Shown in pieces: positions 15,801 through 62,784 of a DNA stretch of 64,000 nucleotides. Positions within the stretch are counted from its first letter, which is position 1. Each line of letters opens with the position of its first letter. The position numbers and the translations under genes are program-made. This DNA is from a virus. The notes under the pieces were generated by a model that had not been told where the DNA came from, did not search any database, and saw only the letters and a program-made list of their open reading frames with translations. The stretch lies in IMG/VR virus record IMGVR_UViG_3300009419_000012, positions 1 to 64,000 of that record; one strand, given 5' to 3'.

Positions 15801-16260
15801 ATTTGCCACGCATCTGTTCCATGGCAACATAGGTCAAACGTTCGTCTCTTTCGTGCTGAATAAAACTATTGATCTTTTCCCACTCTTCTTGGCTGTAGGC
15901 TCCCAGTAGTCCTCGATCATAAAAACCATTTTCTACATTTCGCTTCACAAGATCCAGCAGGGGCCATGGTTCATAGTTGTTGTAAACTTGTTTACGCAAA
16001 TGGTAATTAATCAGCCTGCCGGCCACATATTGATAATTTGGAGTTTCTTCAGATATCAAGTCAGCCGCACTCTTGATCAGCGTTTCTTGAATTTCTGATG
16101 TTTTAATTCCGTTGTAAAACTGTATGTGACTTTTGATTTCTACTTCGCTTGCACTTACACCCGTGATGCCTTCTGTGGCCCAAAATACTACTTTGTGTAA
16201 TTTTTCTAGATTTAACGGCTCTTTTGTGCCGTCTCTTTTTGTAACTTGTATCTGACTCAT
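12826..16260 (-). CDS. nrdAB: Fused class Ia ribonucleotide reductase, NrdA-NrdB
   Basis: One 1144-codon frame encodes alpha then beta. Residues 1-770 are NrdA: an ATP-cone (VTKRDGTKEPLNLEKLHK), the redox Cys in FSSCVLIE, the SNLCTEI block with catalytic Asn/Cys/Glu, CTLSAANWG, the radical-path KQLYYFNT, and a C-terminal CDSC pair. Residues 771-1144 are NrdB: LLDSVQGR, ETIHSRSYTHII (diiron Glu/His and radical Tyr), LEGIRF and RDENVHL. Every catalytic and metal residue I could check is present. The beta part begins at an ATG (13950) preceded by AAGGA, so free NrdB might also be made. It supplies dNTPs with the adjacent glutaredoxin. Confidence 0.95.
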   Translation of the reverse strand: MSQIQVTKRDGTKEPLNLEKLHKVVFWATEGITGVSASEVEIKSHIQFYNGIKTSEIQETLIKSAADLISEETPNYQYVAGRLINYHLRKQVYNNYEPWPLLDLVKRNVENGFYDRGLLGAYSQEEWEKINSFIQHERDERLTYVAMEQMRGKYLVQNRVTGEILETPQMSYILIAATLFQNYPTATRLQWVKDYYDAISHHDISLPTPIMAGLRTPQKQFSSCVLIETDDSLDSINATASSIVKYVSQKAGIGIGAGRIRALGSPIRRGDAYHTGVVPFYKHFQTATRSCSQGGVRNGAATLYYPIWHLEVEDLLVLKNNKGTEDNRVRHMDYGVQFNKLMYERLLTGGDITLFSPHDLPEMYEAFFNDQDRFKELYERAERNTKLRKKTIKAVTLFSSFMQERKDTGRIYLMNVDHANTHSPFKEKVAPIKMSNLCTEIDLPTVPLKDINDEDGRIALCTLSAANWGNVKSPHDFERIGRLAVRGLDALLSYQDYPVKAARLATEEFRPLGVGIINLAYFLAKNDVSYSDPRALPLVDEYAEAWSYYLIKASADLAEEQGPCKRWQDLKYADGLLPIDTRKRDIDELVPHQERMNWQGLREQILRTGIRNATLMALMPAETSAQIANATNGIEPPRSYVSIKQSKHGVLKQVVPEYRRLKNKYELLWDQKSPEGYMNICAVLQKYIDQGISVNTSYNPQYYGDEKIPMSTMLQHLLQFYKYGGKQLYYFNTYDGQGEIDIDKLNNKEELPLEAIEQEDCDSCVIKEDTMSVFNLNSKSHINSLAFFDPAGGVTLQRYDTLKYRQFDKLTDKQLGFFWRPEEIDVGHDSKDFKELTDFEQHIVTSNLKRQILLDSVQGRAPSAAFGSIVSLPELETWIATWTFNETIHSRSYTHIIRNVYSDPSIIFDQLTEIDEIVKCAKDISKYYDALIEASAWYNMLGVGTHTVNGKQVVVDLYDLKKKLWMCLNSVNALEGIRFYVSFACSWAFAELKKMEGNAKIIKLICRDENVHLGSTQTLLKLLPQDDPDYIKIKEETLHECETMFLQAAAQEKEWAEYLFKDGSMIGLNKQLLCDYIDWLTCKRMTAVGLKCGIKTGSNPLPWTAKWIAGAEVQVAPQETEITTYVIGGTKQDVDNNTFKGFSL
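13957..13962 (-). promoter_or_regulatory. Internal ribosome binding site at the NrdA/NrdB junction
   Basis: The minus strand reads AAGGAA with the AGGA core about seven bases before ATG 13950 (MSVFNLNSK), exactly where the beta-subunit homology starts. This looks like a retained start site from an ancestral separate nrdB and could still produce free beta. Confidence 0.55.
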
Positions 16261-16273
16261 TGATTCCTCTAAT

Positions 16274-16720
16274 TCAGTAGTTGTCCAGCTTCAGCTCAGA
16301 GCTGGCGTAATCGATTACATGTGCTAGGTCGTCTGGTATTGATTTTTTATTTACGACTTCTTCGGGTTCCAAATTAAGAACATATTTTCCATCGTCGATC
16401 CAAACTAAATTATACTGATACAACGTACCCTTGCGTCTAAGCACACGCAAGCATAGATCATGCCCGCTATGGTCACTTAGATGTATAGTATACAGGATTC
16501 CCAGGGCGCGAGCAAGATCACAATAGTAATTCTCGGCAATTAAAGTCCAGGGATCTGGCCAACTATCGGGCTTGTCGTGATCAAGATAGAAGGGAGTGAA
16601 CGGTGCGCGACTCCAAAACTTTGCAGTCTGCTCCAATGCTTGTTCAAAAGGTAATAAATTGATTTCACGCCTAAAACGTTTCCACTGTTCTAGGCGATCT
16701 GCCGACGGCAACTTCCACAT
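16274..16720 (-). CDS. Hypothetical protein, 148 residues
   Basis: Trp/Leu/Asp-rich soluble protein (SWPDPWTLIAENYYCDLARALG, then a beta-rich LVWIDDGKYVLNL). No recognised domain or motif. It lies between the tail spike and nrdAB on the same strand, 13 bases before the nrdAB start, so it is probably co-transcribed with the reductase. Confidence 0.55.
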   Translation of the reverse strand: MWKLPSADRLEQWKRFRREINLLPFEQALEQTAKFWSRAPFTPFYLDHDKPDSWPDPWTLIAENYYCDLARALGILYTIHLSDHSGHDLCLRVLRRKGTLYQYNLVWIDDGKYVLNLEPEEVVNKKSIPDDLAHVIDYASSELKLDNY

Positions 16721-16735
16721 GCAGTTACTTATGTG

Positions 16736-18361
16736 TTATATTAATCGTGTGATAGAATATACCAAATTACCTGTGCCATTTGAGTCGCTGGCATAATTTA
16801 GTACGGCAGTGGTAGCGTTTACACTGGTAACTGTGAACGTCACTCCGGTTGGGTTGGTCCTGTTGGGCCATACTCCAGTGGCATTTGGGTACTCAGTGTA
16901 TTCATCTGTGTATTGAATATTTGTGCCTTGACGAACAACATCAAGCCGACCCTGTCTGTATGCATTTATACCTTCTCTCTTGAGCAGATAGTTCATGCTT
17001 ACTGAGGTAATGGTGCCATCAAATACTATGCCAGTGTTTCCAGTGGCCTGGCTGGCGCTGAGTGTGATAACGCGAGCTGGCGATTGTGTTTGCATGCCCA
17101 GTGTGATACCAGTGTTTGCATCAAAGCCTACACTGACACCACGGTCTTGGATAAACACTCTTGACTGTATACTTGCATCATCATTAGGACGTTCAAACAC
17201 GTCACTGATGCTGTGATTGCCACTGCCACCAAATCTAATTACTGGAGTAAAGATATTGCCATTGATACCAGTGTACACTGTGCCAACATCACCAAAATAG
17301 TTCATGGTACTCATTACAGAGCTGACAACATCAACATTGGGCACGTGTACATTAACAGCGTGTCTTGCGATGCCGTCAAATGTACTGCCTAGGATTTTTA
17401 TATTCTTTGTTTCAACTGGCGATGCAACCTTGTCAACCAACACAGCTTGACTCAACTGCTTGAATCCACAACCAAGTAAACGAACGTCGGTGCCATTGAT
17501 AACCAAGCCTTGTGTGCAGTTGTTGAAATCGCATTCGGTGAATGTTACGTTACGAATAAATCCAGCATTGCTGATTGGTCGAGCATATACAGCATTTTGA
17601 CCAGTGATTGAATAGGTATTTGGATTTGTTTGACTGCCTTTGAACACCACTCGAACAAATTCCACACGCTCAGTGGTGTCTAGTCTAACAATGTCTTGAT
17701 TTTGCAAATGCTCAAGAGTCATTTCAGCAACAGTAATATCTCTTGCTACTGTGGCGCTGCCAGTGCCGTAGTTTGCGTCAAATTTGTTTTCACTATCTTT
17801 AAGTTGAATCAATGGTGCTAGGTTACTGTTTTGACGTAGAACTGTTCGCCCTTTGCCTTCGCCTAGTAGGTAAACAAAGCTGGGAAGTTTGAGACTAGCA
17901 CTGATCAAATATGTTCCAGCTGGCACGTGAATCACACGGCGCAGTCTTGGTGTGGTCAATGCAAAGTTACCAAATTCAATTTCGTCAATTGCACGTTGCA
18001 ATGAAGCAGTGTCGTCTGTGTTACCATCGCCTGTTGCGCCAAAGTCACGCACATTGACATAGTCGTCTAGTTTTTGTTGCAGGGTACGCTTGATTGGTGT
18101 GTCAGACGTTGCACCAGTACGGCTGGTATAACCAGATTGTGAACCTTTGAACGTGTAAGCATCACTGATGTTCAATAGGTCAGAAAATTGTGTGAGAATT
18201 TCTGTAACACCAATTTGTGGTGCGCCCTCGGCAATAGTACCATTACCAATGTACAATTGGCGAGTATCTACTGCCCAGCCCAGTTCTGCAGACGCTAGTT
18301 GTGGTAGATCTTGTTGTAGCCCTTTACGGTGCTGGATTCTTGATATCTGAATAACGGCCAT
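16736..18361 (-). CDS. Tail spike / fibre with pectate-lyase-type beta-helix
   Basis: 541 residues. The N-terminus QISRIQHRKGLQQDLPQL...ELGWAVDTRQLYIGNG is the virion-attachment motif common to many phage fibres. From about residue 100, NVRDFGATGDGNTDDTASLQ is the signature start of the pectate-lyase-3 right-handed beta-helix, followed by HVPAGTYLI and repeated short strands. C-terminal strands end in YSITRLI. Such proteins often depolymerise host polysaccharide, but catalytic residues cannot be assigned from sequence alone. A TAAATA box precedes it. Confidence 0.8.
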   Translation of the reverse strand: MAVIQISRIQHRKGLQQDLPQLASAELGWAVDTRQLYIGNGTIAEGAPQIGVTEILTQFSDLLNISDAYTFKGSQSGYTSRTGATSDTPIKRTLQQKLDDYVNVRDFGATGDGNTDDTASLQRAIDEIEFGNFALTTPRLRRVIHVPAGTYLISASLKLPSFVYLLGEGKGRTVLRQNSNLAPLIQLKDSENKFDANYGTGSATVARDITVAEMTLEHLQNQDIVRLDTTERVEFVRVVFKGSQTNPNTYSITGQNAVYARPISNAGFIRNVTFTECDFNNCTQGLVINGTDVRLLGCGFKQLSQAVLVDKVASPVETKNIKILGSTFDGIARHAVNVHVPNVDVVSSVMSTMNYFGDVGTVYTGINGNIFTPVIRFGGSGNHSISDVFERPNDDASIQSRVFIQDRGVSVGFDANTGITLGMQTQSPARVITLSASQATGNTGIVFDGTITSVSMNYLLKREGINAYRQGRLDVVRQGTNIQYTDEYTEYPNATGVWPNRTNPTGVTFTVTSVNATTAVLNYASDSNGTGNLVYSITRLI

Positions 18362-47157: not shown

Positions 47158-47990
47158 GACAGTAGTTGTATGGTTCGTTGTTTGTTTGGAAACTCTTCTT
47201 GTTGCATCCAGTCCACAAGCTCTTGACGCACAGCACTTGCTTTGATGTGTTGCACTTGAGATTCTAGTAGATCCATGTAACCCATTGCGCTCATGGTAAC
47301 AATAGTATGGTGAGCACGATGTACTTCATTCCAGGTGTTGGCAGGGGCATTGTTGACAAAATACTCCACTGTGTCGCGAGGCATAAACTGTACAATGTTC
47401 CAGAAGCCATGATGCGCCATGGCATTGAATCCACCTTCGTTAAGTTCCATTGCAAATTGATCTGCAACAGGGGCCTGTGCAAACACAATACCTTGTGACT
47501 CTAGCCACGGACGATGCTTGATAGCAATGTAGTTGTCTTCTTGTACACCGTGTTCTGGATCGTTAGGGTCCAATTGAATGTGCGGTGCTTGTAGTGCTTC
47601 TAGCAGTCGACGGCTACGCAAACTAAAGCCACCATTGCCTACATTTTGGCCATGTGGTCTCCAAGGCCATGTTGCACCAATATAGTCGTTTAGTAAAAAG
47701 TAGTCGCGCCACTTGCTACCGTCATGCACCATTGCATCCCATTGTTGGAAGATAACAAACGGTGTTTCCACATGCTCCAACATGCCTTTGAGCAACAGAT
47801 TGCAATAGCTGAGCATGTCGCCATGTTTGATTGGCACGTGTTTTGCGCCGGGCAAAAAGTCTTGATCACTAAACACTAGGGCGTGTTTGAATGGCACACG
47901 AGCCAGAGTTTCCTCCATTGCTCGCTTGGCCAAGCCATGATACATGGTTTCGATTGTAACTAGAGTTACGTCATCGCGGGTGTATGTCAT
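47154..47990 (-). CDS. DUF5672-type putative glycosyltransferase, copy 1
   Basis: 278 residues. VIFQQWDAMV, NDYIGATWPWRPHGQNVGNGGFSLRSRRLL, VQEDNYI and HHGFWNIVQFM match copy 2 and the DUF5672 family. Four-base ATGA overlaps on both sides place it in the leftward glycan operon. The two copies differ throughout, so they probably act on different acceptors. Confidence 0.75.
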   Translation of the reverse strand: MTYTRDDVTLVTIETMYHGLAKRAMEETLARVPFKHALVFSDQDFLPGAKHVPIKHGDMLSYCNLLLKGMLEHVETPFVIFQQWDAMVHDGSKWRDYFLLNDYIGATWPWRPHGQNVGNGGFSLRSRRLLEALQAPHIQLDPNDPEHGVQEDNYIAIKHRPWLESQGIVFAQAPVADQFAMELNEGGFNAMAHHGFWNIVQFMPRDTVEYFVNNAPANTWNEVHRAHHTIVTMSAMGYMDLLESQVQHIKASAVRQELVDWMQQEEFPNKQRTIQLLS

Positions 47991-49225
47991 TGAATATCTA
48001 CTTTAGGAAAGTATTTTAGGAACTTGTCATTTGTGTTATGACGCCGATCAACGATCTTTTTCTTGATATCATCAAAGTAGTTCCATGCTAGAGGAATAAA
48101 CAACACCTTGTCATCTGCACCGTACTTGTCCAAATAGCTGATAGGCACAACAGGAATACTCATGCCAGGTGAGAATGTGCCTTGCTTGAGTTCGTTGTCG
48201 TCAATGATAAAGTCTAGTTTGATCTTGCTGAAGTTCAGCAGAGTATTGCCTTTGGCGGCAGCACCATATCCGCCCAGCACATAGCCCTTGCGTTTGTACA
48301 ACTCAACAAAGGTTTTGAGTTCATCTACCAGGCGTAGGGTGTTTGCGGCCCAGGCCGCATACGTGTTGTCGTTGTACAAACCAATGGCATGTTCCATGGC
48401 CACAATGTTTTTCACACGCTCACGCTGTGGCCGGCGGCTTAGAATAAACACATAGCTGGTGCCATGGATAGGTGTTTTGATTGCATCAACTAGATACAAG
48501 CCTGCACGTTCTGCCAGTGCGCTCATGCTCTTGACATTGAAGAAGCTGATGTGCTCATGATAGATTGTGTCAAACTCTGAGTTAGGAACCATGTCTGCTT
48601 GACTGGTTGAAATAAACATCAAGCTGTGGTCACTCATGATACTGCGCACTGTTTTCAAGTATGCCAGTGGATCAGGAATGTGTGCAAACGCATTCTGGCT
48701 GGTGATAATATCCACTGTACCATCCACTGTACGTGCGGCAATTTGTCGAGCAGTATCGTCATTCCAGAAACTGACTTGCACATCATGTCCATTGCGACTG
48801 CTGGTCTTGTACAAGTTCTTGGCAGGATCGACACCGTAGGTCTTGACTCCAAGATCTGCAAAGAAGTTCAGCTGACTACCGTCGTTGCAACCAATGTCTA
48901 GTACAGTTGCAGGAAAGCGACTTGCTGTTGACACAAACGTTTCTTGTGCAAACTTGGCATACCAAGACATGTACTTCATGTAGCTTGGACTTGTGCCCGA
49001 AACATACAGATAGTGTTCGTAAATCAACTTGGGATTAACAGCATGTGTCAATTGCAAGTGATGGCATTCCTCACACATGTTAACAGCAAGCGGAAAATAC
49101 GGCTCGCTGTCTGTGGCTTCTTCTTTGAACGCATTGGCCAATGGCTGATCGTTTAGATCAAGAATGGGTACCAGTTCACCGCTACCGCATGCCAGGCAAT
49201 TGCCTAGTTTGGTTGTATCTTTCAT
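47987..49225 (-). CDS. Zn-binding sugar C-methyltransferase-type SAM methyltransferase
   Basis: 412 residues in the three-part layout of NDP-hexose C-methyltransferases. An N-terminal zinc site: CLACGSGELVPILDLNDQPLANAF and NMCEECHHLQL. A central Rossmann SAM domain: VLDIGCNDGSQL, DIITSQNAFAHIPDP. A C-terminal domain with YGAAAKGNTLLNF and FIIDDNELKQGTFSPG. Such enzymes methylate a keto-sugar intermediate, consistent with the deoxysugar genes at 52375-56539. It could also belong to a closely related sugar methyltransferase class. Confidence 0.85.
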   Translation of the reverse strand: MKDTTKLGNCLACGSGELVPILDLNDQPLANAFKEEATDSEPYFPLAVNMCEECHHLQLTHAVNPKLIYEHYLYVSGTSPSYMKYMSWYAKFAQETFVSTASRFPATVLDIGCNDGSQLNFFADLGVKTYGVDPAKNLYKTSSRNGHDVQVSFWNDDTARQIAARTVDGTVDIITSQNAFAHIPDPLAYLKTVRSIMSDHSLMFISTSQADMVPNSEFDTIYHEHISFFNVKSMSALAERAGLYLVDAIKTPIHGTSYVFILSRRPQRERVKNIVAMEHAIGLYNDNTYAAWAANTLRLVDELKTFVELYKRKGYVLGGYGAAAKGNTLLNFSKIKLDFIIDDNELKQGTFSPGMSIPVVPISYLDKYGADDKVLFIPLAWNYFDDIKKKIVDRRHNTNDKFLKYFPKVDIQ

Positions 49226-50145
49226 TTGTCTAATATCGCTTCCAGTGCGTTAAAAATTTTAAGGTTATCAAAACTCTTTGAGCAAGCCCATTGTGTTTCA
49301 TTTTCGCAAGTGAGATTGTTCACTGGCGGTGTTTGTCTAGCATAGCACCCTGTACAAGAAACATCGCTCAATACCACAGTGATGTCTTTACCAAATTCTC
49401 CACCACGCCATGGCAGGATCTGTTCAGGAAGTAGGTGGCTAATTAATGCCACAATGGGAGTGGTTGTGGTTCCAGCAATATGGAACGGTCCTGAATCTGG
49501 TCCAACAAATGCACGTGCGCGGCTAATAAGATATTGAATTTCTCCCACTGACAACTGACCAACCAAGTTGATAAACTCAGTGGTGTTGGGTGGAACAGTG
49601 TAATCATACTTGGCGCCAACTGATACAATTTTAACACCTGGATACTTGTTTTGCAACCTAGTGAACAATGAACTCCAGATTTCTAAATCAATGTTTTTGT
49701 TTTCCCATGCCCAACGGCGCATGTGAACCACAATGTAATCGCTGCCAATTTCTGCCACAGCATCGTCTACTGCTTCTTTTTCTTCCGCAGTAGGAAACAT
49801 CTCAGGACTGTGATCAATTGCATCAATGTTGGCGCCAAATGCACGATGTAAGTAGCTGTCTACATAGTGGCTGGTCACTTGTTTTTCATATGCATCATTG
49901 AGATTTAGATATATGTCCCAGGGATCAGATTTCTGCATGTCAGCAGGCATGACCACACTGTCAACATGTGGATTGTTTTTTAGAATGCCTGGTTCATCAG
50001 TTACCACTTGCATCCAGGCTTCGGGGTATCTCTTGCGCATCTCGCGAAGCACAGGAGTGATCATCACAAGATCTCCCAGTGCCGCACGGCGGTCAATCAA
50101 TACACGTGTTTGGTGTCCACCCTTATACGGTGCTGGTTTGTACAT
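49222..50145 (-). CDS. GT9-like glycosyltransferase (heptosyltransferase family)
   Basis: 307 residues from the ATG at 50145 (MYKPAPYKGGHQTRV), 23 bases inside the upstream gene; a longer frame lacks similarity. VLIDRRAALGDLVMITPVLREMRKRYP and FVGPDSGPFHIAGTTTTPIVAL are the GT9 N- and C-terminal nucleotide-sugar motifs. A Cys-rich tail (DVSCTGCYARQ...LTCENETQWACS) is also typical. Acceptor unknown. Confidence 0.8.
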   Translation of the reverse strand: MYKPAPYKGGHQTRVLIDRRAALGDLVMITPVLREMRKRYPEAWMQVVTDEPGILKNNPHVDSVVMPADMQKSDPWDIYLNLNDAYEKQVTSHYVDSYLHRAFGANIDAIDHSPEMFPTAEEKEAVDDAVAEIGSDYIVVHMRRWAWENKNIDLEIWSSLFTRLQNKYPGVKIVSVGAKYDYTVPPNTTEFINLVGQLSVGEIQYLISRARAFVGPDSGPFHIAGTTTTPIVALISHLLPEQILPWRGGEFGKDITVVLSDVSCTGCYARQTPPVNNLTCENETQWACSKSFDNLKIFNALEAILDK

Positions 50146-50854
50146 ATTCGCTTTCTGGGTAAAGATTGTCAAAGTGCCAGCCTGGTGTGTGCTTGCCTGG
50201 TGTGCTGGCAATTTCAAACCAAGTTGGATTCTTGCTAGCAATCCAGGCTTCGTGATCATAACGGAAGTTGCCGCCATCATACACTGCACCTGTATAAGGA
50301 CTTGGAGTGTTCCACGGCAGTTGTTCTGGTGCCACCAGTGCATCTAGTTTGGTAACATAGTCGCTGTGACTCCACCAAAAGTTGCCTGAACTGTGCAACC
50401 ACGGTTGTTCAATAATGTTGGTGCCCACTAGGTCGTATCCTGAGTCTAGTTTTTCCACGCATTCTTGCCAACGGTCAATCATGTTGTATTCCATGAAGTT
50501 GCGCCAATCAATTACTCGTTGATCTCCTAGTCTACTCAAACCTTTAAGGTGAAAGTAAAGCATATTAAAACTATCGCCATTGGCAGCATCGGCATTGCGT
50601 TTTACCAAATCCAAGGTAGGGTATTCCCACAGGTCTGTGCGGTTGCTGGTATGGTACCACTTGACATTGCGGTATTCCGACATCACCTCTTGAGCTGGTA
50701 CAAAATTATCTGGATTGCCATTGGAACACATGAGAACTGTGTGTGCTTGTTCCAACAGTCCGGTATCTAGCAAACGTGTGAGTTGTTCGCCTAGTAGATC
50801 AAATGCACCTGGCATGTCGTTCAAGTGCATGAATATTTTAATAGGTTTTGTCAT
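50123..50854 (-). CDS. Putative glycosyltransferase-like protein of the glycan cluster
   Basis: 243 residues. FMHLNDMPGAFDLLGEQLTRLL at the start, SFNMLYFHLKGLSRLGDQRVIDWRNFMEYNMI and WLHSSGNFWWSHSDYVTKLD in the middle. Y-F-H-x-K-G and G-N-F-W-W resemble uncharacterised glycosyltransferase-like proteins of bacterial O-antigen loci. Catalytic residues are not assignable. ATGA overlap with the upstream oxygenase gene. Confidence 0.55.
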   Translation of the reverse strand: MTKPIKIFMHLNDMPGAFDLLGEQLTRLLDTGLLEQAHTVLMCSNGNPDNFVPAQEVMSEYRNVKWYHTSNRTDLWEYPTLDLVKRNADAANGDSFNMLYFHLKGLSRLGDQRVIDWRNFMEYNMIDRWQECVEKLDSGYDLVGTNIIEQPWLHSSGNFWWSHSDYVTKLDALVAPEQLPWNTPSPYTGAVYDGGNFRYDHEAWIASKNPTWFEIASTPGKHTPGWHFDNLYPESEYVQTSTV

Positions 50855-51652: not shown

Positions 51653-52378
51653 TTAGTTGATAATAGGTTGTCCGTTGGGTGCAATGTTGCCATACACACC
51701 AACTTCGTCAAGCTCATGCACAAGTTCTCTAGGAATGCCATGATACAAACAGTGTTCAATATCTGCATATCCGCCAACGGCCATGCGATTGACCATGTAG
51801 TTTCTACCAATGTTGTAGTATTCAATCATGTCCTGATGTCTTGAAGTTGGCCAACTGAGCAAACGGCACATGTACTGCATGTGCATGCCCACTACTTCAA
51901 ACGGAAACTGACTGCGTACACTTTTACCAATTACTACTTTGTCTTTGATTTCTTCTTGCTCGTACATGGACAGATCAAATTTTTCGTTTAGTAAGTAACG
52001 TCCACTCATTTTGAAAATACGATCTTGATCTTGTATTTCACCTGCATCCCAAAGAGTTTGTAGACTCTGTGGGAATGTTGTGAGCTCTGTGAGATTTTTA
52101 ACAATGTCCCAGTTGTTGTAAAATTGCGGAGTACTGTAGATATATTGCACATCTGAATTTTTTGTAAAATCCAAAAATATATCCACAGCATCCATCAATG
52201 CGTTTTCAGTTTCGGGTGTGTAACCGCTACCACTGACTTCGTTGATTACAATTTTGCATTCTGGAACACGATCTCTAAGACATTTAATAGTGTCCAGAGT
52301 CTGTTGTAGTCGCTGGGTGTGATTGTACACACCAAAGCGAGTGTGAATGGCAGATGTTACAATAAACGTTGTTTTCAT
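51653..52378 (-). CDS. Glycan-cluster protein of unknown function
   Basis: 241 residues from the ATG at 52378 (MKTTFIVTSAIHTRFGVYN), ATGA-coupled to the upstream dehydratase. IVINEVSGSGYTPETENALM, RIFKMSGRYLLNEKFDL and ADIEHCLYHGIP. The K-M-S-G-R-Y segment is seen in uncharacterised sugar-transfer proteins, but no catalytic motif is certain. Confidence 0.5.
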   Translation of the reverse strand: MKTTFIVTSAIHTRFGVYNHTQRLQQTLDTIKCLRDRVPECKIVINEVSGSGYTPETENALMDAVDIFLDFTKNSDVQYIYSTPQFYNNWDIVKNLTELTTFPQSLQTLWDAGEIQDQDRIFKMSGRYLLNEKFDLSMYEQEEIKDKVVIGKSVRSQFPFEVVGMHMQYMCRLLSWPTSRHQDMIEYYNIGRNYMVNRMAVGGYADIEHCLYHGIPRELVHELDEVGVYGNIAPNGQPIIN

Positions 52379-53406
52379 TTGCGCAACCACCGATCATTGA
52401 TCAATGTCCAATCCACAACTTCTTTCACACGCTCGCTGAGTTTGATCTTAGGAATCCAACCCAGAGTTTCCAGCAAGCCGCCGTCTAGTGCATAGCGCAG
52501 GTCATGTCCTGGACGACTGGTATGGAAGTCCACCATCTCGTGCTTGAGTGGTTTGCCTTGTGCAGTGGCAATAAGTTGTGCCAGCTGTAGGTTATCAATT
52601 TCTTCTGGCCCAACCAAGTTGAACTTGGGACACTTGGCGCCACCGTAGTCGCTTTCGTGTTTGTAGTTTTGTAGTTTTTCAAGAATAAACATCAAGCCAT
52701 CTGCCACATCCTTGGCGTGGATGTAGTGGCGTGAACCTGCTTGAGTCTTGCTTGGATCGCTGTGTACAGTAACAACTTCACCGTCACGAACTTTCTGGAT
52801 CACCATTGGAATATACTTTTCTGGGTGCTGGCGTTCGCCAAACACGTTCATGGTATGTGTGACCACAATGGGCATCTTGTAGGTGTTTTCAAATGCCACG
52901 CACAGTTCTTCTGCGGCTGCTTTTGATGCTGAATACGGATTGGTTGAATTGTAACGATCGTATTCTTTGTAGTTCACACCAGGAGGTGCTGGGCCAAACA
53001 CTTCGTCTGTTGAGAAGTTGATAAAGCGTTCCAGATTTGGAAGTGTACGTGCCCACTGTAGTAGATTGACTGTGCCTACCACATTGTCCATGACAAATTC
53101 CATTGGATATTCGATTGAACGATCCACGTGTGATCCTGCCGCAAGGTGCAACACATAATGTATGTCACCAATCATGCCACTGGTGAGTGGGCTGATTTCT
53201 GCTTTGAGATCATGAAACACCGGACGCACACGTTTACGAGTTTCCGGATCATGTTCTTGCATCATGTCTGCAAGACGATTTAGGTTACCACTGAAATCCA
53301 AACGATCTAGCGTGACTATGTTCCAGTCAGTAGTTGTTAGGATACGATCAATGATGTGATGGGCGATGAAACCGGCGCCGCCGGTAATTAGAACGTTCTT
53401 TGACAA
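52375..53406 (-). CDS. NAD-dependent sugar epimerase/4,6-dehydratase (RmlB-like)
   Basis: 343 residues, extended SDR. ITGGAGFIAHHI (NAD site), HLAAGSHVDRSIEYP, STDEVFG (catalytic Thr-Asp-Glu) and YSASKAAAEEL (Tyr-x-x-x-Lys). The Asp-Glu after Thr fits a 4,6-dehydratase, not an epimerase. First gene of the leftward glycan arm, preceded by an exact TATAAATA late box. It would provide a 4-keto-6-deoxy sugar nucleotide. Confidence 0.88.
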   Translation of the reverse strand: MSKNVLITGGAGFIAHHIIDRILTTTDWNIVTLDRLDFSGNLNRLADMMQEHDPETRKRVRPVFHDLKAEISPLTSGMIGDIHYVLHLAAGSHVDRSIEYPMEFVMDNVVGTVNLLQWARTLPNLERFINFSTDEVFGPAPPGVNYKEYDRYNSTNPYSASKAAAEELCVAFENTYKMPIVVTHTMNVFGERQHPEKYIPMVIQKVRDGEVVTVHSDPSKTQAGSRHYIHAKDVADGLMFILEKLQNYKHESDYGGAKCPKFNLVGPEEIDNLQLAQLIATAQGKPLKHEMVDFHTSRPGHDLRYALDGGLLETLGWIPKIKLSERVKEVVDWTLINDRWLRK

Positions 53407-53543: not shown

Positions 53544-54596
53544 GTGAAAAAGGCACTCATCACCGGTATTACCGGACAAGACGGATCATACCTAGCAGAT
53601 CTACTGCTGGAAAAAGGCTACGAAGTTCATGGACTGGTACGCCGCAACTCAAATTTTGAGTTCATACCCAACATCATGCACATACGTGATAAAATCACAT
53701 TGCACTACAGTGATCTCACTGACGGAAGCAATCTACGCAACATCATGCTCAAGGTGCGCCCAAACGAAGTTTACAATTTGGCCGCACAAAGTCACGTGCA
53801 TGTGAGCTTTGATGTTCCGGTGTTCACTGCCGAAACCAACGCAGTGGGTGTGCTCAACATACTAGAAGCTGTTCGTGCGCTGGTTGAAGATCAGCGCCGA
53901 AACAACGAACCAGAAACACGTTTCTACCAGGCCAGCACAAGCGAAATGTTTGGTAAAGTGCAGGAGGTTCCACAAAAGGAAACCACTCCATTCTATCCAC
54001 GATCACCATATGGTGTTGCTAAACTATACGCCTACTGGATCACAGTGAACTACCGTGAGAGCTATGGTATTCATGCATCAAACGGCATCTTGTTCAATCA
54101 TGAAAGTCCACGTCGTGGCGAAACATTTGTTACTAGAAAAATCACATCTGGACTGGGCAGGCTGTTTGCTGGTATCCAAAATGATCCAATCAAACTGGGC
54201 AACATGGATTCCATGCGTGACTGGGGACATGCCATGGACTTTGTGGAAGGCATGTGGCTGATGCTACAGCAAGATGAGCCCGACGACTATGTACTGGCCA
54301 CAGGCGTACAACATTCAGTACGTGATTTCCTTAACATGTGTCTAAACTGGTACAAATGCACCTGGGGTTATTTTGGAAACGGCCCAACTGAATATGCAAT
54401 TGACATGATTAGTAAACGGACTATTGTGCAAGTTGACCCAGCATTGTATCGACCTGCTGAAGTAAACACCTTGCTGGGTGACAGTACCAAGGCACGTGAA
54501 AAACTAGGATGGAGTCCAAAGTTTAATATTGAAAGTCTTGTACGTGACATGTGCTCGGCAGACTATCGTGGTCTGCAGGATGGGTATCGCCCATGA
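53544..54596 (+). CDS. gmd: GDP-mannose 4,6-dehydratase
   Basis: 350 residues from a GTG with GGAG five bases upstream. [20 protein letters not shown] (NADP site), [28 protein letters not shown] (catalytic Thr-Ser-Glu), [15 protein letters not shown] (Tyr-x-x-x-Lys) and [16 protein letters not shown] are hallmark Gmd motifs; length is standard. It converts GDP-mannose to GDP-4-keto-6-deoxymannose. The next genes suggest this feeds a 3-dehydration step and not only fucose synthesis. Confidence 0.95.
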
Positions 54597-55363
54597 AAGT
54601 AGTTGTAGCCACAGGAGGCTTTGATCCTGTACACTCAGGGCACATCGCCTATTTCAAACATGCCGCTACCCTGGGAGATATCCTGCTGGTAGGGCTAAAC
54701 TCAGATGCTTGGCTGCGCCGTAAAAAGGGTCGTGCATTCATGCCCTACACAGAACGTTCAGCAGTGATTGGCAATCTGGCCATGGTGCATCAGGTGTTGG
54801 AACTAGAAGACAGTTGTGGCACAGGTGCAGACGGTATTCGTCAGGCTCGTGCGCTGTATCCAGACGCAGAGATTGTGTTTGCCAATGGCGGCGATCGCGG
54901 AGCAGGCAATGTACCTGAGCAAACAGAGTTTGCTGATGATACCAAAGTGCTATTTGAGTTTGGTATCGGAGGAGACTGGAAGCAAAACAGTAGCCGTTGG
55001 ATTCTAGACGAGTGGAAAGCACCACGCACAGAAAAGCCCTGGGGCGAGTTTCGCCTGCTACATGACTACGGTGCAGAAACAAAACTAAAAGAACTCACTG
55101 TGCAACCTGGACAAAGACTCAGCATGCAGAAACATGCCAAGCGTTCGGAGTTCTGGTTTGTTGCAGAAGGACAAGCAACTGTGTATACTATCAACTCCCG
55201 CACCACTGATGCAGAGCTGGTAGGTGTATTTGGCAAGCATCAGAGCGTATGGATTAGCAAAGGCGAATGGCATCAATTAGTTAATGATACCGATAAGCCA
55301 CTACAGCTGGTAGAAATACAGTACGGCGAAGACTGCGTCGAAGAAGATATTGAAAGGAAATAA
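54593..55363 (+). CDS. Cytidylyltransferase-cupin (phosphomannose isomerase-type) fusion
   Basis: 256 residues from the ATG at 54593 (ATGA overlap with gmd). Residues 1-135: nucleotidyltransferase fold with [17 protein letters not shown] (H-x-G-H motif), [16 protein letters not shown] and [10 protein letters not shown]. Residues 145-256: type II phosphomannose-isomerase-like cupin with [31 protein letters not shown] and KGEWHQLVN. The two activities are usually separate proteins. The cupin could supply mannose-6-phosphate or bind the sugar, while the transferase activates a sugar or alditol phosphate. Confidence 0.85.
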
Positions 55364-56539
55364 ATGTCACAACCACGTTGGCCCCTAATGAAGAATGCGA
55401 TTACCTGGGGTGATCGCTTGAGCATGGTAAAGTTTTTGCTTACCAGTGAGAAATACACAAACGGACCACGTGTTCGTGAATTTGAAGCGCAATGGGCAGA
55501 CTGGGCAGGTAGCAAACATGCTCTCATGGTCAGTTCAGGTAGCACAGCAAACACCTTGATCATCAGTGCTGTTAAAGAGAAAATGGGTTGGAAAAACGGC
55601 GATAAGATTCTTGTGCCCGCTTGTACCTGGGTTACCAACATCAGCCCTGTGTTCCAATCAGGACTAACACCAATCTTCTGTGATGTTAACTTGGACAACT
55701 TCAGCTTTGATGTTGAACACATGAAACAGATTGCAGTCAAGCATCCTGACATCAAGGGTATCTTTGTAACTCACTTGCTGGGCTTCTCGGCTGAGAATGA
55801 AAAGTATCAAGAAATCTTCCCCAAAGCAGTTATCCTAGATGACGTGTGTGAGAGTCACGGCTGTACTGACACCAGTGGTGTTCGTCGTGGTGGTAAAACC
55901 ACCACAGCAGGTAGCTTTAGCTTTTACTTTGGTCATCACATGACCACAATCGAAGGTGGTATGGTCAATGTAAACGACAGTGAACTATACGAACTAATGC
56001 GTATGAAACGCAGTCACGGCTTGGCACGTGAATCAGGCAACTTAAAAAAGTATGCAGATCAGCACCCAGAGATTCACCCACAGTTCTTGTTCATGACAGA
56101 CGGCTATAACCTACGCAGTTCAGAAATCAACGCTGTGCTGGGTATGAGCCAGTTACCACGCTTGGATGGCATGATTGAACAGCGCCGTGATAATTTTAGA
56201 CAGTTCTGCTCTATCATGTGGAATCACCAAGACAAGTTCCATCCTGTTACATGGCAAGAAGGCAACAGTAACTTTGCTTTCCCATTCATTTGCAAGACAC
56301 CAGAAATGGCCAAACAAATGAAACAAGTGTTTACCCGCGAAGGTGTTGAGCATCGTCCTATTGTGGGCGGCAACTTGCTACGTCAACCATTCCTGGCAGG
56401 GCACAAGTTTGGTGTTCCTAAAAAGAACAGCAACGTTGACTTGCTGAACGACAACGGTGTTTACATTGGCAACAGTCACTTTGTCACAAGCAAGGATATG
56501 GATTGGCTAGAAGAGACCTTGGAGAAGATCAGTGCATAA
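55364..56539 (+). CDS. ColD-like sugar 3-dehydratase of the DegT fold (His for Lys)
   Basis: 391 residues, DegT/DnrJ/EryC1 family: MVSSGSTANTLIISA, PACTWVTNISPV, HLLGFSA and LDDVCESHG (PLP Asp). The PLP-lysine position is histidine (FYFGHHMTTIEGG, His191), as in ColD and RfbH, which dehydrate at C3 and do not aminate. Directly downstream of gmd, whose product GDP-4-keto-6-deoxymannose is the ColD substrate. The expected product is GDP-4-keto-3,6-dideoxymannose, precursor of colitose. RfbH-type Fe-S cysteines are not evident, favouring ColD-type chemistry. Confidence 0.85.
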   Translation: MSQPRWPLMKNAITWGDRLSMVKFLLTSEKYTNGPRVREFEAQWADWAGSKHALMVSSGSTANTLIISAVKEKMGWKNGDKILVPACTWVTNISPVFQSGLTPIFCDVNLDNFSFDVEHMKQIAVKHPDIKGIFVTHLLGFSAENEKYQEIFPKAVILDDVCESHGCTDTSGVRRGGKTTTAGSFSFYFGHHMTTIEGGMVNVNDSELYELMRMKRSHGLARESGNLKKYADQHPEIHPQFLFMTDGYNLRSSEINAVLGMSQLPRLDGMIEQRRDNFRQFCSIMWNHQDKFHPVTWQEGNSNFAFPFICKTPEMAKQMKQVFTREGVEHRPIVGGNLLRQPFLAGHKFGVPKKNSNVDLLNDNGVYIGNSHFVTSKDMDWLEETLEKISA

Positions 56540-58064: not shown

Positions 58065-58093
58065 ATTATACTACCTACTGAATTAAAAATCAA
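58065..58093 (-). promoter_or_regulatory. Sigma-70-like promoter for the 52-residue gene
   Basis: Minus strand: TTGATT (58088-58093), 17-base spacer, TATAAT (58065-58070). The -35 overlaps the end of the adenylating-enzyme gene. Confidence 0.75.
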
Positions 58094-59538
58094 CCTTTGA
58101 TATAGCCGTATTGTTGAGTGGCAAGCAATGCTCGCTGTATCTTCATGGTCATTGGGTGTCTAGGAAGTTCTTCGATGATTTCTACTATTCTTGGACGTTC
58201 GTGTGATTTTAGTTTGTTGGTATGGATTTTAATTTTTCTTTGTAACACTGATAAATCAATGGCATCTAATAGGACTATACAGACTTTTACACAACTCAAT
58301 CCGTTGCCATCTAAAGCATGAACTGCAACGACGTCATCAACTTCGGGCAGTTCTCGTATGGTATCTTCAATCACAACAGGACTAACAAATAATCCATTGG
58401 TCTTAAAGGTATCTCTACTTCTGCCTTGCATGTAATAAAAGTCTTGTTTCTTTATAAACACGTCATGTGTGGTTACCCATCCGTCAACAAAACTTGGCGC
58501 ACCTTGTGTTATTTCTCTCACAGCATTGCATTTGGACCTGGTCCATACCTCGCCGGGTTCACCGTCTGCTACAACGTAGCCTTGTTGATCTCGAAGTTCA
58601 AGTTCTAATTCACTGTCAACCAATCTCAATGAGCCCAACGGGTTGCCAGGTAGTTGTACCATGGTTACTCCGTTTTGAGAGGCACCCACAAGATTGTATA
58701 GATGTTGATCATATTGGACCTGCCATTGTTGTTGTAATCTGATAGAGCAGATATCGCCAGCTACTACACAAAACTCAGGTATTTCAGATTTTTGCAATGT
58801 TTTTCTTCGTAGCAGTATTGAATAGATTGGGGGACTAGAATAAAAATTCTTGACTTTGTATTTTACAATATTGTTATGCACTACGCTGGGTGAGAATGAT
58901 CGAGACTCCACCACTATGCTGGAACCTTTCATCAGCGCACCATGTAGCATCATCAATCCGTAAGAAGTTTCTATAGGAGCCACAGTGTACACTGTGCCTT
59001 TTCCAATGGTTTCTTTGTTAGGGAAGTCACTGAGACCAGTGGCATGGTAAAACATACTTCTATATGATTGCACTAGTGCGTCTGCATTTCCACCTGTACC
59101 ACTGCTCCAACAGATGCACGATTCGTTATCGGGTTGTGTATGAATAATGTCATAGACTTCAGATTGAGCAAGGTATTCTGTGTAATTTTTAATCACTATG
59201 GTGTTTTGGTCAACAAGACTGTCGTATAGCTGGTCTGTAATTATTACATTGCACCCGGTTAGTAAACAACGTCTTTTCATCTCGTCTGGGGTTATCCTGC
59301 GAAGCAATTGAACATATGTTATACCAAGTTGTGCTAGAGCAAGTCTTACAGCCACTGCGGTTATACTGTCAGAAAATGTCACTCCTACAGATTTTTGGCC
59401 CAGCAAGTGCTTGAACGCAAAAGCCAACTTGGAAATCAGTATCATTAAATCTTGATATGTGATTGATTCGTTATTGTCATAGATTGCTACTTTATTAGGC
59501 ACCTGAATTGAGATCAATTTTATTTGTTCAATGATCAT
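58090..59538 (-). CDS. ANL-superfamily adenylating enzyme, copy 2
   Basis: 482 residues. Motifs in order: ITYQDLMILISKLAFAFKHL (A1/A2 region), CICWSSGTGGNADALV (A3, ATP), YNLVGASQNGVTM (A5), GEVWTRSKCN, DGWVTTHDVF (A7), GRSRDTFKTNGLFVSPVVIEDTI (A8) and HPMTMKIQRALL (A10 with the adenylation Lys). A complete acyl/aryl-CoA-ligase-like enzyme. It is close to copy 1 in length and sequence, so tandem duplication followed by divergence is likely. Substrate unknown; it might activate an acid for transfer to a glycan. Confidence 0.88.
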   Translation of the reverse strand: MIIEQIKLISIQVPNKVAIYDNNESITYQDLMILISKLAFAFKHLLGQKSVGVTFSDSITAVAVRLALAQLGITYVQLLRRITPDEMKRRCLLTGCNVIITDQLYDSLVDQNTIVIKNYTEYLAQSEVYDIIHTQPDNESCICWSSGTGGNADALVQSYRSMFYHATGLSDFPNKETIGKGTVYTVAPIETSYGLMMLHGALMKGSSIVVESRSFSPSVVHNNIVKYKVKNFYSSPPIYSILLRRKTLQKSEIPEFCVVAGDICSIRLQQQWQVQYDQHLYNLVGASQNGVTMVQLPGNPLGSLRLVDSELELELRDQQGYVVADGEPGEVWTRSKCNAVREITQGAPSFVDGWVTTHDVFIKKQDFYYMQGRSRDTFKTNGLFVSPVVIEDTIRELPEVDDVVAVHALDGNGLSCVKVCIVLLDAIDLSVLQRKIKIHTNKLKSHERPRIVEIIEELPRHPMTMKIQRALLATQQYGYIKG

Positions 59539-59542
59539 ATGA

Positions 59543-60964
59543 TTAGGTTCTTAACAGCCCTCGCTGTACCTTCATGGTCACAGGGTGCATGGGTATTTTA
59601 TCAATGATTTCTATTAGTTTAGGACGTTCGTGCGATTCTAGTTTACTGGTGTGAAATTTAATTTTGCTTTGTAATACTGATAGATCTATTGTGTGTGTTG
59701 GTACTATGCAAACTTTTACACAACTCAGTCCATTATCGTCAATGGCATGTACTGCAACAACCTCATCAACTTCTGACAGTTCTCTAATGGTATCTTCAAT
59801 CTTAATCGGGCTAACAAACTTACCCGAAGTTTTGAAAGTGTCTTTGCTACGACCTTGCATGTAAAAGTAATCTTGTTTCTTTATTAAAATATCGCGAGTG
59901 GTCAACCAACCATCTACAAGACTGGCAATGCCTTCAGTTATTTCTCTCACAGCATTACATTTGGTTTTCATCCAAATTTCACCAGGCTCGTTATCCTGCA
60001 CAACATTACCTTGAGCATCGCGCAGTTCAAGTTCTAGTTCGCTGTCAAATATTTTCAATGCTCCCCACGGATCACCTGGCATTCTAGCAAGCGAAAGACC
60101 ATTTTGACTACTTCCAAGGAAATTATGCAAGTGGGTGCCGTATTCTTCTTGCCATTGTTGTTGTAATCTAATAGAGCATAAATCACCAGACGAGGCACAT
60201 ACATTAGGTACCGCATGTTTTGGTAATGCTTTTCTTCTTAGCAACACAGAATATACCGGAGGACTAGAAGCAAAATTTGTTACTTTGTATTTTACAATGT
60301 TGTTGGATACTATGCTTGGCGAAAATGGTCGAGACTCGACTACTAATCCTGCATCTCCTAACAGGGCCGCATGCAACATCATTAGACCAAAAGTGGTTTC
60401 TATCGGGGCCACAGTGTACACCACACCATTTTCAATTTGTTCGCCTTGGTGTTTGGCCAAGCGAATACCAACATGAAACATACTGCGATGAGAATGTACT
60501 AGCCCATCTGCTTTACCGCCGGTGCCGCTTGACCAGCTGATGCATAATTCGTCATCAGGCTGTGCATGAATAGTGGTGTACATGTCCAAATTTTGGTCGT
60601 ACTTGGATAGATTTTCAATTATGATAGTACGTAAGGTGCCCAACGACTCATAGTGTTCGTTGGTAATAATTGTATTGCATTGAGATAATCTACACCGTCT
60701 TTGTACTTCTTCTGCAGGAAGTCGACGTGGCAGTTGAACATACGTTATACCCAGTTGTGTTAGTGCTAGTCTTATTGCAACTCCAGCAATACTATCTGGA
60801 TATACTATACCTACAGATTTTTGACCAATCAAATGTTTGAAATCAAATGCAAGTTTAGCAACTAGTATTGTTAAATTTTGATATGAGATTGATCCAGTTT
60901 CGTCATAAACTGCTATGCGATCAGGTGACGCAAGTGCAGTGGATTTTATTTGTTCAATAATCAT
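59543..60964 (-). CDS. ANL-superfamily adenylating enzyme, copy 1
   Basis: 473 residues. ISWSSGTGGKADGLVHSHRSM (A3), HNFLGSSQNGLSL (A5), DGWLTTRDIL (A7), GRSKDTFKTSGKFVSPIKIEDTI (A8) and HPVTMKVQRGLL (A10) are intact. It shares the MIIEQIK start and most blocks with copy 2. It begins one base after the radical SAM stop, indicating a single radical SAM-ANL-ANL transcript. No carrier protein or condensation domain is visible nearby, so acyl-CoA or acyl-AMP is the likely product. Confidence 0.88.
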   Translation of the reverse strand: MIIEQIKSTALASPDRIAVYDETGSISYQNLTILVAKLAFDFKHLIGQKSVGIVYPDSIAGVAIRLALTQLGITYVQLPRRLPAEEVQRRCRLSQCNTIITNEHYESLGTLRTIIIENLSKYDQNLDMYTTIHAQPDDELCISWSSGTGGKADGLVHSHRSMFHVGIRLAKHQGEQIENGVVYTVAPIETTFGLMMLHAALLGDAGLVVESRPFSPSIVSNNIVKYKVTNFASSPPVYSVLLRRKALPKHAVPNVCASSGDLCSIRLQQQWQEEYGTHLHNFLGSSQNGLSLARMPGDPWGALKIFDSELELELRDAQGNVVQDNEPGEIWMKTKCNAVREITEGIASLVDGWLTTRDILIKKQDYFYMQGRSKDTFKTSGKFVSPIKIEDTIRELSEVDEVVAVHAIDDNGLSCVKVCIVPTHTIDLSVLQSKIKFHTSKLESHERPKLIEIIDKIPMHPVTMKVQRGLLRT

Positions 60965-60965
60965 G

Positions 60966-61835
60966 TTAGTCTTTGCGTACCACGTTGGTTAGGTCATAGT
61001 GTGGTACTGCTGCCAGTGGTTTAGCATCAGCACACATGGTGCAGATTTTAGTGTTGGGTTTGCCAATGTCTTGCACAAAAGCTTCTATATCATCGTTGAT
61101 TCCGTAGCCTTTGTAGCTCAAATAGTCTTGCCATGGTGCATTATCTAATAATCCTTGAAGTTCCAGGATATCTTTAAGATTGGCAATTGGTGCGCATTTA
61201 TACAATCTGTTTTTGTACAACTGTGGATTGCGAGGAGATGAACAAATTGAATGTGCAGCCACTGGATCTTTTGATCTCCATGGACGTATTAACATTCCTG
61301 TGCCGTGATAGGTTCTAACAAACTCGCTGTACACAGCCATCTTTACACTGACACTGTCCTGTTCCATGTCTAGATATACATCATCAACAATTTGTGGATG
61401 CTTGTTTGTCCATTTACCATGTGCGTTGATTAATGCGTGTGTTCGATGTTGTAGTAAATCAAATGACGGACCAATATTCCAATGACAACTGATCCATAAT
61501 GTGGCATTGCCCACTTGTTTGAGCATGGCAATAGGATCAACAGTTTCAAAGTGCTCTCCATTGGTCACTAGCTTTATATGTGCATCTGGCCAATGATCAC
61601 GAGCAGATTTAATAATTTCTGCTAGGTCAGGATTCAGTGTTGGCTCACCACCAGTTATTACCAAGGTGTCCATGGAGATTTTTTCACTCCAGGCTTGCAT
61701 CCACTCAGTGGCATCAGACAACGTCACCGACCCTTCGGATCTATTGTGATCACTCATGCTGTTGCATCCTCTGCATTGCAGAGTGCATGCATGCTCAACA
61801 GTAAATTCCAGTAAGGGTAGGTGATGTTTTGTCAT
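60966..61835 (-). CDS. Radical SAM enzyme with SPASM-like C-terminal cysteines
   Basis: 289 residues. CTLQCRGCNS (C-x3-C-x2-C for the 4Fe-4S/SAM cluster) at about residue 17, VITGGEPTLNPDL (G-G-E-P) and IKLVTNG. The C-terminal part has further Cys (ICSSPRNPQLY, LYKCAPIAN, ICTMC) suggesting an auxiliary cluster. Substrate unknown; it leads the transcript into the two ANL enzymes. Cluster assembly could draw on the phage IscU/IscA. Confidence 0.9.
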   Translation of the reverse strand: MTKHHLPLLEFTVEHACTLQCRGCNSMSDHNRSEGSVTLSDATEWMQAWSEKISMDTLVITGGEPTLNPDLAEIIKSARDHWPDAHIKLVTNGEHFETVDPIAMLKQVGNATLWISCHWNIGPSFDLLQHRTHALINAHGKWTNKHPQIVDDVYLDMEQDSVSVKMAVYSEFVRTYHGTGMLIRPWRSKDPVAAHSICSSPRNPQLYKNRLYKCAPIANLKDILELQGLLDNAPWQDYLSYKGYGINDDIEAFVQDIGKPNTKICTMCADAKPLAAVPHYDLTNVVRKD

Positions 61836-61850
61836 AGTTTATAATTGGAT

Positions 61851-62000
61851 TTATCGCCCTCGTCCTGTTGCTTTCATAATCTTTTGTGCTGGCGGTGCTG
61901 CCATCTTCATTGTCTGTTGTTTCTGTACCGCTTGTAACTGATGCGGTGCTTTGCTTTCTTTTGCTTTGGGCACTTTGGCCTTGGAACGTGGATCACCCAT
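61851..62000 (-). CDS. Small Lys/Gln/Ala-rich basic protein, 49 residues
   Basis: ATG at 62000 with GGAG six bases upstream; a TAAATA box lies 50 bases before it. MGDPRSKAKVPKAKESKAPH, then a Gln-rich middle and the end KIMKATGRGR. Strongly basic, no Cys, no hydrophobic core: likely disordered and nucleic-acid binding. It ends 15 bases before the radical SAM gene. A role as substrate peptide of the downstream enzymes is possible but unsupported. Confidence 0.6.
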   Translation of the reverse strand: MGDPRSKAKVPKAKESKAPHQLQAVQKQQTMKMAAPPAQKIMKATGRGR

Positions 62001-62075: not shown

Positions 62076-62771
62076 CTAAACAGTTTTATTGTTCAGATAA
62101 ATTTTTCTAAGATCCGTACCAGCCAAACTTACTGTTTCTCCTGGTTCCGTATTTCTCATGACCATTAGCCCTTGCTGTACCACTGTGCCGCTGGCTATGG
62201 TCAAATAACTCTTGAGAATTCCACTACCAAGGCCCAAATAAACATTATCCTGAATGGTGGTGTTGCCTATCAAAAGAGAATTCCGTTGTAGTACACAGTT
62301 GTTACCTACCACACTGTGATCACCTATCCGAGCACCTGAGTACACTGATGTGTAATCACCAATGGTCAAATTACTAGAAATGTAACTGAAGTTGTCAATA
62401 AACACCCCTCGACCAATACGCACATTGTATGTGCATACATGTGCCCACTTGCCTATTACTGTGGCAACATCAAATTGTTGTTGCTCGCACAAAGCAATCA
62501 GCTTATGACGCTTCTGACGATTACGTGCTTGAGATATTTCATTGAATACAGGCGGTTGCCAATTGGTGGTGCAAAAATACTGATACTGTTTCCAGTGTTC
62601 AGGATTGTCAATGAGATCTTGCTCACGGGCAAGGATCGGTATGTCTTGAAACTGTCCTTGTCCGTGATAGTCATCATCAATGATACCAGCAATTTCAAAT
62701 CCACTGTCTGTGGCAATGTCACAAAAGTCGTGGATGTTTGAACTGGTGCCCAGCAATAACAATGGTTTCAT
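62076..62771 (-). CDS. NeuD/PglD-like sugar O/N-acyltransferase
   Basis: 231 residues from the ATG at 62771 (MKPLLLLGTSSNIHDFCDI). An N-terminal Rossmann-like domain (LLLLGTSSNI, IAGIIDDD) precedes a left-handed beta-helix of hexapeptide repeats (VRIGRGVFIDNFSYISSNLTIGDYTSVY, ARIGDHSVVGNNCVLQ, TTIQDNVYLGLGSGI). This is the PglD/NeuD layout, acetyl-CoA-dependent transfer to a sugar. The catalytic His is not certain. It fits decoration of the phage-encoded or host glycan. Confidence 0.85.
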   Translation of the reverse strand: MKPLLLLGTSSNIHDFCDIATDSGFEIAGIIDDDYHGQGQFQDIPILAREQDLIDNPEHWKQYQYFCTTNWQPPVFNEISQARNRQKRHKLIALCEQQQFDVATVIGKWAHVCTYNVRIGRGVFIDNFSYISSNLTIGDYTSVYSGARIGDHSVVGNNCVLQRNSLLIGNTTIQDNVYLGLGSGILKSYLTIASGTVVQQGLMVMRNTEPGETVSLAGTDLRKIYLNNKTV

Positions 62772-62784
62772 TGGCAACAGCTTA

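Follow-up and report, generated by a model that had tools for sequence, protein, structure and literature searches.

What would a virus do with a radical SAM (S-adenosylmethionine) enzyme followed on the same strand by two tandem members of the ANL superfamily of adenylating enzymes? Three such genes lie near the end of the window, the stretch of 64,000 nucleotides analysed here (positions 1 to 64,000 of the 75,697-base IMG/VR virus record IMGVR_UViG_3300009419_000012), and they supply the one radical SAM match and the two PF00501 matches of the entire record. Overall, we believe the trio is best explained as the tailoring cassette of a phage sugar or glycan pathway, its ANL pair having altered and possibly non-adenylating chemistry, an explanation that we hold tentatively and place a little short of an even chance. 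We favour its radical SAM half because of the fold and the cluster cysteines, and its ANL half because of substitutions conserved in both copies. Taken together, the sequences suggest that the phage may build an exotic sugar group by non-standard chemistry. The three genes are as follows:

60966..61835, minus strand: twitch radical SAM protein, 289 aa, SpeY/BtrN-like (PF04055, 41.3 bits; CX3CX2C plus four-cysteine twitch motif; closest solved fold SpeY, Z 14.6)
59543..60964, minus strand: ANL1, 473 aa, AMP-binding superfamily (PF00501, E 1.9e-33)
58090..59538, minus strand: ANL2, 482 aa, paralogue of ANL1 (PF00501, E 6.2e-33; 63% identity to ANL1)

All three frames are open. A first-pass annotation of this DNA had proposed an operon of a radical SAM gene and two tandem, diverged ANL genes; its coordinates proved exact, and the PF04055 and PF00501 matches and the identity between the paralogues bear it out. 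The single base that it placed between genes does separate the radical SAM gene from ANL1, but the gap between ANL1 and ANL2 is 4 bp.

The radical SAM protein

The radical SAM protein scores over the PF04055 cut-off and also carries GGEP. Seven of its cysteines occupy cluster positions, and all seven are invariant across nine phage homologues:

61764..61787, minus strand: CX3CX2C motif of the SAM [4Fe-4S] cluster, Cys17, Cys21 and Cys24 (motif inspection; invariant in the nine homologues)
61032..61244, minus strand: twitch auxiliary-cluster cysteines Cys198, Cys214, Cys265 and Cys268 (C-x10-N-x4-C-gap-CxxC; invariant columns in the nine homologues)

The C-terminal four follow the twitch pattern C-x9-15-G-x4-C-gap-C-x2-C, with Asn instead of Gly in the window copy, and Cys117 is the sole further cysteine. 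The SPASM-like character originally ascribed to the protein would call for a seven-cysteine motif serving two auxiliary clusters, and just four C-terminal cysteines stand in cluster positions; by these motifs, the protein is predicted to be a four-cysteine twitch enzyme and not a SPASM enzyme. Twitch domains hold a single auxiliary cluster, which in BtrN is fully ligated by four cysteines (PMC9012708; PMC6231123).

Profile and fold agree on the closest solved structures. Searched with a profile of the nine phage homologues, the PDB returned SpeY (7wzv) at the top, with an E of 1.2e-17, and BtrN lower, at 2.5e-4. An AlphaFold2 (AF2) model built from six sequences (pLDDT, the predicted local distance difference test, 67; pTM, the predicted template-modelling score, 0.74) again placed SpeY first in Foldseek (E 3.1e-10), with BtrN next-ranked, and in VIA-align the same model gave Z scores of 14.6 for SpeY, 12.2 for BtrN and 10.5 for SkfB, the next other entry. 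Superposition on SpeY took in 236 residues at a root-mean-square deviation of 4.3 and covered almost the entire model. As far as the profile and the modelled fold can tell, SpeY and BtrN are the closest solved structures of the window protein. SpeY, described in the title of its PDB entry as a twitch radical SAM dehydrogenase, is part of spectinomycin synthesis; the butirosin pathway uses BtrN to oxidise 2-deoxy-scyllo-inosamine (PMC9012708). The likeness has its limits, in that identity to SpeY (7wzv/7wzx/7x0b) is 15-20% and the window protein sits in a phage glycan context, while identity to the inosamine dehydrogenase BtrN (4m7t) is 14% and no inosamine pathway was seen in the record. The match provides a concrete candidate reaction. 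A SpeY/BtrN-like enzyme would remove a hydrogen atom from a hydroxyl-bearing carbon of a sugar or cyclitol and pass the second electron to the twitch [4Fe-4S] cluster, leaving a ketone.

The closest homologue found, at 29% identity and with a common MTKHHLP start, lies within a run of radical SAM genes in a 288.8-kb record (L224:13802-14638). Others, in the sister contigs L103-L107, are found at positions ~880-1910, about 1 kb upstream of ribonucleotide reductase. In cyanophage S-SCSM2R the homologue has as neighbours glycosyltransferases, an aminotransferase annotated as 3-amino-5-hydroxybenzoate (AHBA)-synthase-like, and an amidinotransferase clearly related to inosamine-phosphate amidinotransferase 1bwd (E 1.2e-60), a neighbourhood whose predicted functions would allow a sugar or cyclitol to be oxidised, transaminated and amidinated in the manner of an aminocyclitol pathway. 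Among 621 sampled bacterial genomes, hits of the family profile mostly covered the radical SAM core and did not extend over the twitch half.

The tandem ANL pair

Against PF00501, with its gathering score of 29.9, ANL1 scores 116.3 bits and ANL2 114.6, and each covers nearly the whole model. The C-terminal lid is weak (PF13193, 18.6 and 17.3 bits against a cut-off of 24.5), and the A10 lysine (Lys465/466) aligned nonetheless; judged by these matches, both proteins are predicted to be full-length members of the ANL superfamily by fold. Their closest relatives in the PDB are benzoate-CoA ligase (2v7b, E 9e-23) and anthranilate-CoA ligase (4wv3, E 7e-24), and the search also matched Cfl (7a9i), an amide-forming ANL. 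With these ligases the pair shares the full-length ANL architecture, but it falls well outside the benzoate-CoA ligase family (TIGR02262, 113.4 and 104.4 bits against a curated cut-off of 375), is about 25% identical to members from plasmids and genomes, and has lost the P-loop Lys and the A5 Glu.

Five residues are invariant in 374 class I adenylate-forming enzymes, namely the Mg-binding Glu, a Gly, the AMP-ribose Asp, the hinge Arg and the A10 Lys, and the P-loop Lys is 97% conserved, its mutation having significantly lowered activity in characterised enzymes (PMC6122825). Both copies are altered in the P-loop and in the A5 motif, as read from the alignment:

60506..60532, minus strand: ANL1, altered P-loop SSGTGGKAD (usual SSG[ST]TGxPK)
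59080..59106, minus strand: ANL2, altered P-loop SSGTGGNAD
60098..60115, minus strand: ANL1, A5 motif GSSQNG, Mg-binding Glu replaced by Gln287
58669..58686, minus strand: ANL2, A5 motif GASQNG, Glu replaced by Gln288

The substitutions are common to the two proteins (Lys to Asp, Pro to Ala and Thr to Gly in the P-loop, Mg-binding Glu to Gln in A5), and in both the A10 loop has one extra residue and a Met for Gly ahead of the Lys. Neither, then, has the A5 Glu or the Lys-bearing P-loop [ST]SG[ST]TGxPK of a canonical adenylating ANL; the P-loop Lys and A5 Glu are present in all 18 ANLs of the comparison set, four of which come from related jumbo phages. "Intact", the word first used of the pair, thus suits the reading frames but not the catalytic motifs. 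Loss of active-site residues had been named beforehand as what would speak against acyl activation, and by alignment that loss appears partial: the P-loop Lys and A5 Glu are gone, but four of the five superfamily-invariant residues (Asp358, Arg372, Gly328 and the A10 Lys465) are kept in both copies.

The copies are 63% identical, with a nonsynonymous divergence (dN) of 0.26 and a synonymous divergence (dS) of 1.73 (NG86), a dN/dS of about 0.15 by which both are evidently held by purifying selection. From this ratio, the alterations are most likely older than the duplication and have been maintained since; the pair would then descend from a single gene already without the P-loop lysine and the Mg-binding glutamate. 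In the tree its two members group together on a long stem with 100/100 support, and its G+C content at third codon positions (0.30-0.35) lies below that of the other measured genes (0.38-0.49).

The alternative that survives best, possible in our view but doubtful, is that the ANLs are ordinary acyl-/aryl-CoA/AMP ligases that tolerate the substitutions and supply an acyl-CoA (or form an amide directly) for a NeuD-like acyltransferase acting on an amino sugar. The four kept residues favour it, as does the rank of the anthranilate- and benzoate-CoA ligases as best solved matches; the match to Cfl, which forms amides, means that a carrier protein would not be required; and a NeuD-like gene lies 240 bp upstream of the radical SAM gene, with a 49-codon open reading frame (ORF) in between:

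61851..62000, minus strand: basic 49-codon ORF with an AGGAG ribosome-binding site, perhaps the operon's first gene (inspection of the ORF and its ribosome-binding site)
62076..62777, minus strand: NeuD/PglD-like hexapeptide acyltransferase (TIGR03570, 99.6 bits, below the cut-off of 160.8; Hexapep PF00132)

The acyltransferase that the first-pass annotation had put just upstream is therefore there, but at this distance and short of the NeuD/PglD family cut-off. Set against ordinary ligases is the replacement, in both copies, of a Lys that is 97% conserved and whose mutation hinders activity, and of a Mg-binding Glu found in 374/374 enzymes (PMC6122825).

Should the altered motifs instead be taken at face value, the ANLs might be pseudoenzymes, that is, binding, scaffold or regulatory ANL-fold proteins with no role in acyl activation. 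The P-loop, A5 and A10-loop changes are in keeping with this, and phage proteins are often repurposed, but we consider it quite improbable, given that purifying selection has kept four of the five invariant residues in both proteins, including the catalytic A10 lysine and the AMP-ribose aspartate. If, on the other hand, the ANLs are active despite having lost "invariant" residues, they would reveal the extent to which one of the largest ligase folds tolerates a rewiring of its ATP handling.

In platensimycin biosynthesis, two ANL-fold proteins, PtmA1 and PtmA2, are reported to split the adenylation and addition half-reactions (PMC6594144). Compared by description and not by sequence, the window pair is alike in placing two ANL-fold proteins in one pathway, but one of the PtmA partners adenylates, and the identical losses in ANL1 and ANL2 do not indicate a division of labour; a split pair of this type is not favoured.

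Scans of large collections for relatives of the pair need short exact peptide or DNA patterns, so that absence speaks for the collections sampled and does not prove uniqueness; within them, no relative above about 28% identity was found. Viral-contig scans with a single protein, the pair alignment, a P-loop DNA pattern and a conserved 101-aa block found no relative, and one with the ANL of a related jumbo phage found just that protein's own close kin. A P-loop pattern scan of the genome collection gave 85 matches, none of which encodes a relative with the motif (tblastn). Profile searches of 385 Alphaproteobacteria and 369 Gammaproteobacteria genomes yielded generic ligases alone, the best at about 25-28% identity, and a search of 296 Bacteroidota genomes, for which there was no positive control, came back empty (group names are taken from locus titles). 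The rarity in phages first claimed for the pair holds: matches came from just 7 of the 50,697 phage records, with identities of 21-23%, and these are unannotated Listeria/Staphylococcus phage records (OR848555, OR846735, OR849863, OR844989 and similar) that may hold host DNA.

Sugar genes and a possible pathway

What would such a cassette act on? Sugar genes occur on both strands of the window, which also encodes two DUF5672 proteins:

53544..54596, plus strand: GDP-mannose 4,6-dehydratase (GMD; TIGR01472, 481 bits, equivalog cut-off 415)
54551..55363, plus strand: nucleotidyltransferase-cupin fusion (PF01467, PF01050)
55364..56539, plus strand: ColD-like pyridoxal-phosphate (PLP) 3-dehydratase, His for Lys (SFYFGHHMTTIEGG; best PDB match ColD 2gms, E 9.5e-57)
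52375..53406, minus strand: nucleoside-diphosphate (NDP)-sugar 4,6-dehydratase/epimerase (TIGR01181, 233 bits, below cut-off)
47987..49225, minus strand: sugar C-methyltransferase (PF08421, PF13489, PF08484)
49222..50343, minus strand: GT9-family glycosyltransferase (PF01075, E 1e-14)

The ColD-like enzyme keeps the diagnostic His where aminotransferases have Lys. GMD and ColD together point to a colitose-type 4-keto-3,6-dideoxy sugar, and the genes at 53544-56539 look like the first steps toward such a sugar in a phage. The resemblance to GDP-colitose synthesis stops there, as ColC is not assigned and the trio, on the opposite strand, is linked to these genes by neighbourhood alone.

In the tailoring cassette that we favour, the radical SAM protein would oxidise a sugar of the phage pathway to a ketone, and the two ANLs would together process an activated carboxylic acid, either an acyl-AMP or an acyl thioester, meant for that sugar, acting as a matched pair whose ATP-dependent adenylation is weakened or absent. 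The first-pass annotation had the genes producing an unusual acyl or amino-acyl group for a glycan or small molecule, and this is partly supported: the glycan context stands (GMD, the ColD-like enzyme, the C-methyltransferase and GT9), but normal adenylation is doubtful, with three ATP/pyrophosphate-handling motifs altered in both copies, which leaves the sugar part of the idea supported and the acyl part unsettled.

Several points weigh against the tailoring cassette. The model of the radical SAM protein is of medium confidence and its identity to SpeY low, and a common fold with SpeY does not prove dehydrogenase chemistry. The ANL motif assignments are alignment-based, a two-sequence ANL model (pLDDT 29.6) having been left unused, and Gln could bind Mg weakly, so that adenylation may persist. 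No acyl-carrier domain was found in the whole 75.7-kb record, probably a fragment, in agreement with the carrier protein originally reported missing from the window; and, the ColD-like dehydratase aside, no aminotransferase or ordinary amine-forming enzyme was recognised in the record. Finally, no second genome with the trio was found in the collections sampled, so a shared pathway lacks that support.

A bolder proposal, and an unlikely one, would make the ANL pair a new, so-far phage-only ANL-fold class without ATP-dependent adenylation. Together with a SpeY-like radical dehydrogenase it would attach an acyl-type group to an oxidised sugar, and this would belong to a natural-product-style chemistry distributed across jumbo phages.

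None of the trio genes has a clear ribosome-binding site of its own, which fits translational coupling from the 49-codon ORF; that ORF starts MGDPRSKAKVPKAKESKAP and has a strong ribosome-binding site directly ahead of the radical SAM gene. Occurrences of the T4-type late promoter TATAAATA are as many as chance would give, and the same holds for the sigma-70 promoter and terminator scans. A flank search with the DUF2061 gene, which might have revealed an insertion of the cassette here, found nothing. That the radical SAM protein and the small ORF form a peptide-modification unit like those that make ribosomally synthesised and post-translationally modified peptides, with the ANLs adding to the peptide, is very improbable, for although the ORF is well placed and twitch enzymes such as SkfB modify peptides (PMC6231123), the enzyme lacks an N-terminal peptide-binding extension (16 residues precede its first cluster Cys), SkfB ranks below SpeY and BtrN by fold, and the ORF has no homologue among the compared loci.

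The phage and its relatives

The UvsW-like helicase is closest to those of Sinorhizobium phage Phosso (53.5%), Agrobacterium phage Atu_ph07 and PA5oct-type Pseudomonas phages, whose genomes all measure about 284-490 kb, and the ribonucleotide reductase has at least 595 relatives in viral contigs, these up to 345 kb. Because the kin of both proteins sit in large phage genomes and contigs, the record is most likely a fragment of a jumbo phage.

Each related record of more than 260 kb has 10-14 radical SAM matches, which often lie in runs, and a literature search found no description of such radical SAM-rich phages. In five of them (G401, G404, G405, G406 and G415; IMG/VR, 262-345 kb), many of the radical SAM genes are tandem and several encode an N-terminal SPASM-like domain. 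PF00501 proteins occur in four of 43 related records, two of the four being near-identical assemblies. L219 and L227 encode a canonical benzoate-type ANL (TIGR02262, 362 bits), located in L219 at 15761-17248 and flanked by a tryptophan-halogenase-family protein (PF04820, E 4.5e-91) and a NodU-like carbamoyltransferase. At L219:7263-18470 (a 345 kb record) and in L227 (175 kb), a run of four to five radical SAM genes is followed by the carbamoyltransferase, the ANL and the halogenase, as in a natural-product-style cluster, and in L219 these are followed, on the opposite strand, by the gene of an amidinotransferase-like protein whose match lies mostly in its C-terminal end. This phage group thus has ANLs close to radical SAM genes more than once, but not as the window's trio. 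Since these jumbo phages carry so many radical SAM matches along with genes resembling those of halogenases, carbamoyltransferases and amidinotransferases, antibiotic-style sugar chemistry may have an overlooked source in phages. Related jumbo phages also encode two further, very divergent ANL-type proteins (L221:9082-10542 and L223:9308-10393) that keep the P-loop Lys and the A5 Glu, and one of the two is just 361 aa long (PF00501, E 8.5e-31).

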